A DNA stretch of 22,746 nucleotides, taken from the IMG/VR virus record IMGVR_UViG_3300045135_000262, positions 1 to 22,746 of that record. One strand, written 5' to 3'. Each line of letters opens with the position of its first letter. Within the stretch, counting starts at the first letter, position 1. The position numbers were made by a program, and so were the translations under genes. This document shows, piece after piece, positions 9,832 through 21,653 of the stretch. Source of the stretch: a virus. The notes beneath the pieces were generated by a model. The model ran no database searches and had not been told where the DNA came from. It worked only from the letters and a program-made list of their open reading frames with translations.

Positions 9832-9833
9832 TA

Positions 9834-9861
9834 GTTATACTGCTGAAAATTAATTTGTCAA
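9834..9861 (-). promoter_or_regulatory. Sigma70-like promoter for capsid genes
   Basis: On the minus strand there is a perfect TTGACA (9856-9861), a 16-base spacer and TATAAC (9834-9839, 5 of 6 to TATAAT). It lies between the scaffold stop (9868) and the capsid start (9626). It would give a leader of about 200 bases. A second TTGACA at 9818-9823, within a repeated TGTTGACAAA, has no convincing -10. No phage-type polymerase promoter was recognised, so host RNA polymerase is the likely user. Confidence 0.65.
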
Positions 9862-9867
9862 CAGTTT

Positions 9868-19155: not shown

Positions 19156-19180
19156 TTAAAGAACTTATTGCGTTCTTCAA
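19156..19180 (-). other. Weak hairpin over the end of the DUF1127 gene
   Basis: TTGAAGAAC and GTTCTTTAA pair over 9 positions (one G.U) around a 7-base loop, covering the stop codon of the DUF1127 gene. It is AU-rich and lacks a U-tract, so it could be a weak terminator or a 3' end-protecting structure. The gap to the next gene (19126-19176) holds the GGAGG ribosome site and nothing else recognised. Confidence 0.3.
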
Positions 19181-19341
19181 AAAGCTTTACCTGTAAGTAT
19201 AACTCTTTCTATATCGTGTCTACCAATACCTAGATCTCGTAACTCCCTGTCAGTCATTTGGTAAAGTTGCATTCTTGCAATCTTACGTCTTGCTGATTCT
19301 GCTCTAGCTTCTATTAGTCTGTCAAATAATTTTCTAAACAT
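19177..19341 (-). CDS. DUF1127 (YjiS-like) small protein
   Basis: The 54-aa frame reads MFRKLFDRLIEARAESARRK, then a core of QLYQMTDRELRDLGIGRHDIERV, ending ILTGKAF. The core 'L--M(T/S)DRELRDLGI-R-DI' is the DUF1127 signature, where bacterial members have R-L-S-D-R-E-L-R-D-I-G. The N-terminal half is a basic helix (five Arg/Lys in SARRKIAR). Some DUF1127 proteins in alphaproteobacteria are known to bind RNA and to affect RNA turnover and phosphate or stress responses. ATG at 19341 is set 6 bases from GGAG. The gene has its own promoter and a hairpin that covers the ribosome site. The phage role may be to steer host RNA decay; that is inference. Confidence 0.85.
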   Translation of the reverse strand: MFRKLFDRLIEARAESARRKIARMQLYQMTDRELRDLGIGRHDIERVILTGKAF

Positions 19342-19344
19342 TTT

Positions 19345-19379
19345 CTACTCCTATGTTAGCCCTAACTGGGTAGGAGTAG
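19345..19379 (-). promoter_or_regulatory. Leader hairpin sequestering the DUF1127 ribosome site
   Basis: CTACTCCTA (19371-19379, read on the minus strand) pairs perfectly over 9 bp with TAGGAGTAG (19345-19353), which contains the GGAG Shine-Dalgarno (19348-19351). A second small stem GTTAG/CTAAC (55-66 of the 193xx block) sits inside. The structure would block ribosome binding until melted or bound. An upstream GTAGT-ATA-ACTAC element could compete for the 5' arm. Confidence 0.6.
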
Positions 19380-19393
19380 TTATACTACAAATA

Positions 19394-19422
19394 GTTATAT
19401 CATACTACAGATAAAAATGCAA
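19394..19422 (-). promoter_or_regulatory. Sigma70-like promoter for the DUF1127 gene
   Basis: TTGCAT (19417-19422), a 17-base spacer and TATAAC (19394-19399) form a plausible host promoter just after the stop of the upstream gene. The -10 is 5 of 6 to consensus, the -35 only 3 of 6. The predicted start near 19387 leaves a 46-base leader that holds the whole hairpin. The -10 is identical to that of the capsid promoter. Confidence 0.5.
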
Positions 19423-19427
19423 CCCCG

Positions 19428-20661: not shown

Positions 20662-20976
20662 TTATTTATAAGTATTAGGAGCTTTTTTAATACCAGTATT
20701 TAGAGTACCAGAAGATTTAACCATACCACCTACGTTATACATAGCAACCTTACCACCTTTTGCGTAAGCTTTCTTTTTCATAGCTCCGCCTTTGGCATAA
20801 CCTTTTTTAGCCATACCACCTTTTTTCATACCTTTTTTACTAGCTGCTGCAGCTTTCATAGATTCTTTTTTATTACCATCTCCATCAATATCTAAAAAAT
20901 CTGGTTTAGCTGCTCCACCTGCTGCATAACCTTTTTTCTTCATGCCACCTTTAGCATATCCTTTTTTCTTCATCAT
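20662..20976 (-). CDS. Lys/Gly-rich repeat protein with a DxDxDG motif
   Basis: This 104-aa protein is built of Lys-Gly-rich units: KKGYAKGG (4-11), KKGYAAGG (14-21), KKGMKKGGMA (47-56), KKGYAKGG (57-64) and KKKAYAKGG (67-75). Between them lies DFLDIDGDGNKKESM (26-40), with Asp at 29, 31 and 33 and Gly34, an EF-hand/dockerin-like calcium loop lacking the usual hydrophobic position 8 and Glu12. The C-terminus (VKSSGTLNTGIKKAP) recurs in marine phages. The strong positive charge suggests DNA or envelope binding. It begins with ATG-ATG overlapping the upstream stop; GAGGA lies about 6 bases before. Confidence 0.7.
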   Translation of the reverse strand: MMKKKGYAKGGMKKKGYAAGGAAKPDFLDIDGDGNKKESMKAAAASKKGMKKGGMAKKGYAKGGAMKKKAYAKGGKVAMYNVGGMVKSSGTLNTGIKKAPNTYK

Positions 20977-21653
20977 GATTTTTCCTCACTATATAAATTG
21001 TTAAATACTCGTTGCGTATCCCATACATAGTCTACGTTTTCTTTCGAGTTATAAATATGTTGGTTAGGTTTAAAGTCTGGAGCACCTTCCCCAGTTTCAA
21101 ACCAAGCAGGGTGAGTTACTCTCACTCTATTATTGGGTAACGCAACTATGTTACCTGTATATTCTCCTGCATCTAACAACTCTAAGACATGAGATTGTTT
21201 ATGTTGTGCAGGATCGTCTGCTACTTCATTGTCTGTGTAGTCTACAGTAAAGTAATACTTTGCAGGATAGAACTCACCGTCTACTTTGGCTATCCAAGGA
21301 GCAGGTGTAGCTCTTTCTAACTTATATACTGAGTGTGTATGAGACATACAATCCCAGGGTTGTGCTAAATATGGTGGTAGCTCTGTAGGCCATTCCTCTA
21401 GGGGGGTATCTGCCACGAGTGCTGTTAGAGGCATTCTTGCCCACATTGCACCACCATGTACATTTTCCGAGTCATCAAAGTCTGACTCACAACCTGTAAA
21501 TATAACTTGAAAACTTAGAGTTCTGTTTGGCATGGTGGTTACACCAATTACCATAGCATGTAAGAACTTTCCGTGATAATCTTCTAAATTTTTTGTATAC
21601 TCTCTACGAATCCATGCTTTAAAGTATGGTATGCTACTAGTTAAAAATGGCAT
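20973..21653 (-). CDS. Conserved marine phage protein of unknown function
   Basis: This 226-aa protein starts MPFLTSSIPYFKAWIRREYT, with YHGKFLHAMVIGVTTMPNRT, then GGAMWARMPLTALVADTP, LAQPWDCMSHTHSVYKLER, GEFYPAKYYFTVDYTDNEVA, and a C-terminal VALPNNRVRVTHPAWFETGE. The pattern is one I recognise as widely conserved in marine podoviruses and cyanophage-like genomes, with no assigned role. The region is rich in Trp/Tyr/His and lacks a signal peptide or transmembrane segment. It follows the 78-aa gene at TAA-ATG and overlaps the repeat-protein start, so it belongs to the same operon. A structural or host-takeover role cannot be told apart from sequence. Confidence 0.7.
   Translation of the reverse strand: MPFLTSSIPYFKAWIRREYTKNLEDYHGKFLHAMVIGVTTMPNRTLSFQVIFTGCESDFDDSENVHGGAMWARMPLTALVADTPLEEWPTELPPYLAQPWDCMSHTHSVYKLERATPAPWIAKVDGEFYPAKYYFTVDYTDNEVADDPAQHKQSHVLELLDAGEYTGNIVALPNNRVRVTHPAWFETGEGAPDFKPNQHIYNSKENVDYVWDTQRVFNNLYSEEKS

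Follow-up and report, generated by a model that had tools for sequence, protein, structure and literature searches.

A conserved hairpin over the ribosome site of DUF1127 genes in HMO-2011-type marine phages, probably unlocked by the gene's own promoter

In the pyrC gene of Escherichia coli the CTP/GTP ratio moves the transcription start over a few nucleotides, and a hairpin over the ribosome site can form or not depending on where the RNA begins. Ribosome-site hairpins are also described for the genes e, soc, 49 and I-TevI of bacteriophage T4, and for e and I-TevI a late promoter was shown to reside in the 5' strand of the hairpin (PMC3014915). The long T4 RNA that is started upstream hides the ribosome site, whereas the RNA from the promoter in the 5' strand lacks this strand and is translated (PMC3014915). 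For a duf1127 gene control via the leader is known from Sinorhizobium meliloti, where it proceeds by uORF-dependent transcription attenuation, presumed to involve Rho (PMC12218461). Among the DUF1127 proteins of bacterial hosts some bind RNA (e.g., CcaF1; PMC10253847), and binding of the phosphate sensor PhoR has been described as well (PMC12501420). HMO-2011-type phages are described as belonging to the most abundant marine viral groups known (PMC6918029), and the papers searched contained no description of the promoters or the gene timing of this group.

The window analyzed here is a viral record of 22.7 kb that belongs, to judge by its genes for terminase, portal and capsid, with the HMO-2011-type podophages. 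Its terminase is 87% identical to that of Roseobacter phage CRP-9 and 67% identical to that of HMO-2011. The DUF1127 gene encodes a product that passes the curated Pfam cut-off for PF06568 (30.8 bits vs 23.3). Its neighbours, as identified by PHROGs, show it to be part of the packaging gene order, followed by the genes for the small and the large terminase. On the same strand a 226-aa protein (20973-21653, minus) matches PHROG 3704 with an E-value of 4e-27; the label of this family is ferredoxin and its class is moron, auxiliary metabolic or host takeover. The features relevant for the following description are:

19341..19177, minus strand: DUF1127 gene, 54 aa, PF06568 with E 2.4e-7
19345..19353, minus strand: 3' arm of the hairpin, TAGGAGTAG, containing AGGAG (19352-19348)
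19360..19370, minus strand: inner stem CCC/GGG, predicted for the long as well as for the short RNA; P2 RNA would begin with it
19371..19379, minus strand: 5' (anti-Shine-Dalgarno) arm CTACTCCTA; its DNA lies between the -10 box of P2 and the start predicted for P2
19377..19384, minus strand: box 2, putative -10 box of P2, TATAACTA, sharing 3 nt with the beginning of the 5' arm; RNA predicted to start around 19371
19394..19399, minus strand: box 1, putative -10 box of P1, TATAAC; predicted start around 19386, with an RNA that retains the whole hairpin
19402..19407, minus strand: TAGTAT, a TASTAN element, -35-like, not TTGACA, 17 nt upstream of box 2
19417..19422, minus strand: TTGCAT, possible -35 sequence of P1, 17 nt from box 1
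9832..9865, minus strand: capsid-gene promoter TTGACA-16-TATAACTA for comparison, with TATAACTA as -10

On the minus strand CTACTCCTA (19379-19371) forms a perfect stem of 9 bp with TAGGAGTAG (19353-19345). The Shine-Dalgarno sequence AGGAG (19352-19348) lies inside this stem, 11 nt before the ATG (19341-19339). The initial annotation had claimed a perfect 9-bp stem covering GGAG of the DUF1127 gene, and this description was correct. The short leader of the window has a folding energy of -15.4 kcal/mol (z -2.5 relative to dinucleotide shuffles), and with longer flanks the z of the single-sequence fold drops to an unexceptional 0.05, so that one sequence alone is suggestive and the significance of the hairpin depends on its conservation in relatives. 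A search against Rfam 15 with the window and five relatives gave no family match above the gathering score.

Relatives were collected by searches with several DUF1127 proteins, which led to 318 usable loci with 177 distinct leaders; clustering at 80% identity reduced them to 56 representatives. A leader hairpin before the DUF1127 gene is present in all 56 representatives from HMO-2011-type marine phages, and their stems are long and mostly perfect. The arm sequences are almost wholly divergent, with 49 different 5' arms among the 56 representatives. Examples are the pairs CTATCCTC/GAGGATAG and ATCTCCATA/TATGGAGAT, the arms of CRP-1 (AACTATCTC/GAGATAGTT), CRP-603 (ATGTTCAT/ATGAACAT) and CRP-3 (AATTATCTC/GAGATAATT) as well as the 14-bp stem of CRP-235 (AAACTCTCCTTAGT/ACTAAGGAGAGTTT). 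The 3' arm covers the ribosome site or the start codon in 51 of the 56 representatives and the loop between the arms measures from 5 to 59 nt. The small inner hairpins of the relatives differ from that of the window.

MAFFT alignment of such diverse leaders fails to line up the arms, and no pair counts were taken from it. A per-column count of covariation within clusters was spoiled by register shifts due to compensated indels, with many apparently broken cells. Instead, an arm test was used in which the arms were anchored independently of their pairing (the 5' arm on the -10 box, the 3' arm on the start codon) and cognate partners were compared with non-cognate ones. Mean pairing amounts to -13.6 kcal/mol with the own partner and to -9.0 kcal/mol with the partners from other leaders (z -12.2; 0 of 10,000 permutations). 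In 24 more-diverged leaders the same test yields a z of -9.0, and scoring by Watson-Crick pairs only gives a z of 10.6. Compensatory change in homologous leaders, which the initial annotation had named in advance as a check of the stem, was found. Since complementarity of the arms is kept despite the change of their sequences, the hairpin must be under strong selection: it is real and strongly conserved, and it is predicted to mask the ribosome site of the DUF1127 gene. Its exact placement varies in some lineages. Leaders of the CRP-2 type have a stem that abuts the start codon and flanks, rather than covers, the Shine-Dalgarno sequence, and in leaders with CTATGT/ACATAG the Shine-Dalgarno sequence is paired only in part. 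Leaders of the CRP-235-like and CRP-738-like types have the -10 box in the loop and the whole 5' arm upstream of the box, a layout that fits a logic in which the hairpin is gated by a promoter.

The module is restricted in its occurrence. HMO-2011 itself has neither a DUF1127 gene nor the module at the corresponding place and possesses the capsid promoter. Cobaviruses, in which the DUF1127 gene is embedded in an operon, lack the module; in CRP-5, CRP-6, CRP-118, P12053L and SIO1 the operon-embedded gene is located beside MazG and ribonucleotide reductase genes without hairpin or box. Locus L328 of CRP-13 (~1001-1108) and locus L333 of SIO1 (1001-1117) contain DUF1127 open frames for which the public records have no annotation. 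Inheritance of the hairpin from the DUF1127 genes of the hosts was considered and rejected because host leaders are ordinary: a z of at least 2 is reached by 3 of 46 host leaders vs 42 of 56 phage leaders. Its lack in HMO-2011, in phages with operon-type DUF1127 genes and in hosts means that the module accompanies the DUF1127 gene of the HMO-2011-type group.

A TAWAAY box is found in all 177 distinct leaders, yet the rule of this search is permissive, so the counts for the exact octamer TATAACTA (41 of 56 DUF1127 leaders vs 5 of 288 leaders of other genes) are the fairer figure. In the window this box 2 stands 15 nt downstream of box 1 (TATAAC). Box 1 was detected in 26 of the 56 representatives, 14-15 nt upstream of box 2, and is absent from the other 30; at least 10 of these 26 have TTG at a distance of 17 nt from it, in leader segments of 85 nt that are too short for some of them. 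The initial annotation had proposed a TTGCAT-17-TATAAC promoter with a leader that consists of little more than the fold. The letters are present and a leader of about 45 nt is predicted, although a simple sigma-70 scan does not list this promoter. Box 1 occurs in about half of the representatives, but the conserved box is the second one, TATAACTA, which had been overlooked. Upstream of box 2 no TTGNNN was found at -35 spacing (0 of 56 representatives). A TASTAN element is situated there with a spacing of 16-18 nt in 24 of the 56 representatives (other spacings 0-5 of 56) and, among the distinct leaders, in 101 of 177; it is possibly a site for a phage transcription factor. A start-like pyrimidine-purine step at +7/+8 from box 2 is seen in 35 of 56 representatives, a signal that is partly forced because the 5' arm pairs with the purine-rich Shine-Dalgarno sequence. 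In the CRP-1 counterpart, TATAACTATCTCTG, the predicted start is at G, +7 to +9 from TATAAC.

The same octamer is found at another place in these genomes. TTGACA-16-TATAACTA stands before the capsid gene of the window and of CRP-1, CRP-9 and HMO-2011, and is apparently the structural-gene promoter of this phage group. With TTGACA 16 nt upstream of it at the capsid gene, the octamer is very probably a -10 element. In the window some 200 nt separate this promoter from the capsid gene downstream (9626-8553, minus strand). A promoter for a T7-like phage polymerase was rejected, as no RNA polymerase is listed in three annotated CRP genomes and TTGACA-16-TATAACTA looks sigma-70-like.

The position of box 2 on the 5' arm has predicted consequences for access to the ribosome site. 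RNA begun at +8 loses a median of 100% of the helix pairs (mean 91%, 56 representatives). The computed median cost of opening the Shine-Dalgarno sequence is 6.5 kcal/mol in read-through RNA and 0.8 kcal/mol in P2-started RNA, compared with 1.8 kcal/mol in 288 other leaders of the same loci. Read-through RNA differs strongly from these controls (Mann-Whitney p 4e-27), and the cost is lower after a start from box 2 in 55 of 55 cases. RNA from box 1 is closed, with a median opening cost of 7.3 kcal/mol. The P2 result is robust, the site being open on median with start positions of +5 or later. In the window the long RNA is predicted to be closed and the short one to be open, and the opening cost falls from 10.3 at position 0 to 0.5 at +7. 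The 22 leaders that are costliest to open in the window, CRP-1, CRP-9 and CRP-345 include those of several other genes, and the combination of closed site and opening box is found with DUF1127 only. Capsid leaders are also costly to open (window 9626, minus strand, 6.6 kcal/mol; CRP-9 39776, minus strand, 7.7 kcal/mol); their arrangement is different, with an arm that has no box. Between the upstream gene and DUF1127 no terminator-like site was found in the window.

We consider it probable that the hairpin is a promoter-gated lock, i.e., that DUF1127 is translated from its own promoter P2 and not from read-through RNA. RNA coming from the upstream genes on the same strand or from P1 would carry both arms, so that the Shine-Dalgarno sequence would be paired and little DUF1127 protein produced. 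Polymerase at P2 (-10 box TATAACTA, 19384-19377) would start near 19371, past the 5' arm, leaving the Shine-Dalgarno sequence free for translation. Translation of DUF1127 would thus be tied to the firing of its own promoter, presumably a late one of a type shared with the capsid promoter. The basis of this reading is the complementarity of arms throughout sequence change, the gene-specific placement, a -10 box that is universal and placed either on the 5' arm or closely behind it, and the predicted unmasking from about +5 onwards; from these we infer the transcription starts, the read-through transcription, the timing and the effect on translation. The second -10 box, universal and on the 5' arm, makes the choice of promoter or start site the simplest switch. 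Against the lock count the atypical -35 region of box 2 and the deviating layouts of CRP-235-, CRP-738- and CRP-2-like leaders; moreover, about half of the leaders have box 1, whose RNA would be closed, so that P2 need not dominate. More tentatively, and with considerable doubt, P1 and P2, 14-15 bp apart, may give near-identical mRNAs of which one is locked and the other unlocked; the choice between the two promoters would then switch DUF1127 on or off, and a phage factor may read TASTAN.

The initial annotation had interpreted the leader as a possible thermometer or protein-operated switch. A leader operated by protein, in which P1 RNA always bears the hairpin and the DUF1127 protein (autoregulation) or another factor opens or stabilizes it, appears unlikely to us. 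P1-like TTGNNN-17-TATAAC sequences in many relatives, the RNA binding of some host DUF1127 proteins such as CcaF1 (PMC10253847) and a short AACATA directly before the Shine-Dalgarno sequence in 13 of 56 representatives would agree with it, but only box 2 is universal, 30 of the 56 representatives having no box 1, loop length ranges from 5 to 59 nt and the near-complete turnover of loop and stem sequences leaves no common protein site. Slippage of the start site at one promoter in a pyrC-like manner, by which small shifts at P2 set the amount of 5' arm in the RNA, is quite improbable despite the steep fall of the opening cost with start position in the window (10.3 at 0 to 0.5 at +7): the usual starts (+5 and later) are all open on median, and the arm often reaches upstream of the -10 box so that small shifts are unable to restore it.

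The arms could also act at the level of DNA, as operator of a dimeric repressor overlapping the -10 box. This is the expected place for an operator, and nevertheless we regard such a dyad as highly improbable, considering the inter-arm distance of 5 to 59 nt and the fact that in 51 of 56 representatives one arm is located on the Shine-Dalgarno sequence or the start codon. Moreover, G-T combinations between the arms (48) outnumber A-C combinations (7), which RNA pairing predicts and a symmetry of the DNA would not; this count comes from sequences that are not independent and is supportive only, and together with the variable distance between arms it indicates pairing in RNA rather than a DNA dyad. 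An RNA thermometer that opens at higher temperature can be given hardly any credit. A stem over the Shine-Dalgarno sequence is the general form of thermometers, but the stems here are long and mostly perfect, and refolding at seven temperatures predicted an open-site probability below 1e-4 from 5 to 45 °C. The alternative GTAGT/ACTAC stem, suggested as a means of switching between closed and open leader, is not conserved either: it occurs in 6 of the 177 distinct leaders and in a single one of the 56 representatives. The interpretation is therefore shifted from a thermometer or protein switch to a ribosome-site lock gated by a promoter.

The analysis yields a conserved promoter octamer, TATAACTA, shared by capsid and DUF1127 genes, and a probable lock on translation that is directed at one small gene only. 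By implication mistimed production of DUF1127 would be costly, which makes its role testable. If the two-promoter reading is true, a host-modulating DUF1127 protein would be controlled in an on/off manner by promoter choice alone.

Among the known systems, the duf1127 leader of Sinorhizobium meliloti is similar in that a DUF1127 gene is controlled via its leader RNA, but it has no ribosome-site hairpin overlapping a promoter. With pyrC the present leaders share the principle that the 5' end of the RNA governs formation of a ribosome-site hairpin, whereas here whole arms are predicted to be lost and the alternative RNA to come from further upstream. Descent of the window from T4-like phages was rejected, its terminase being 67-87% identical to those of HMO-2011-type CRP phages and HMO-2011. 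As in e, soc and I-TevI of T4, the Shine-Dalgarno sequence and/or AUG of the DUF1127 leader is predicted to be in a helix on the long RNA; a promoter in the region of the 5' strand would be a second parallel, for which the leaders have a -10 box at the right place and an atypical -35 region. In contrast to T4, the phages are HMO-2011-type podophages of alphaproteobacteria and the gene is DUF1127. The late promoter of T4 is read by gp55/gp33, whereas here the -10 box TATAACTA is host-like and starts are predicted; no late sigma factor is annotated in the regions examined of CRP-1, CRP-9 and CRP-345. A further difference from T4 is that the module is group-wide with near-complete turnover of its arms. 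This comparison suggests that the ribosome-site lock of T4 is no oddity of that phage and has a counterpart in unrelated phages.
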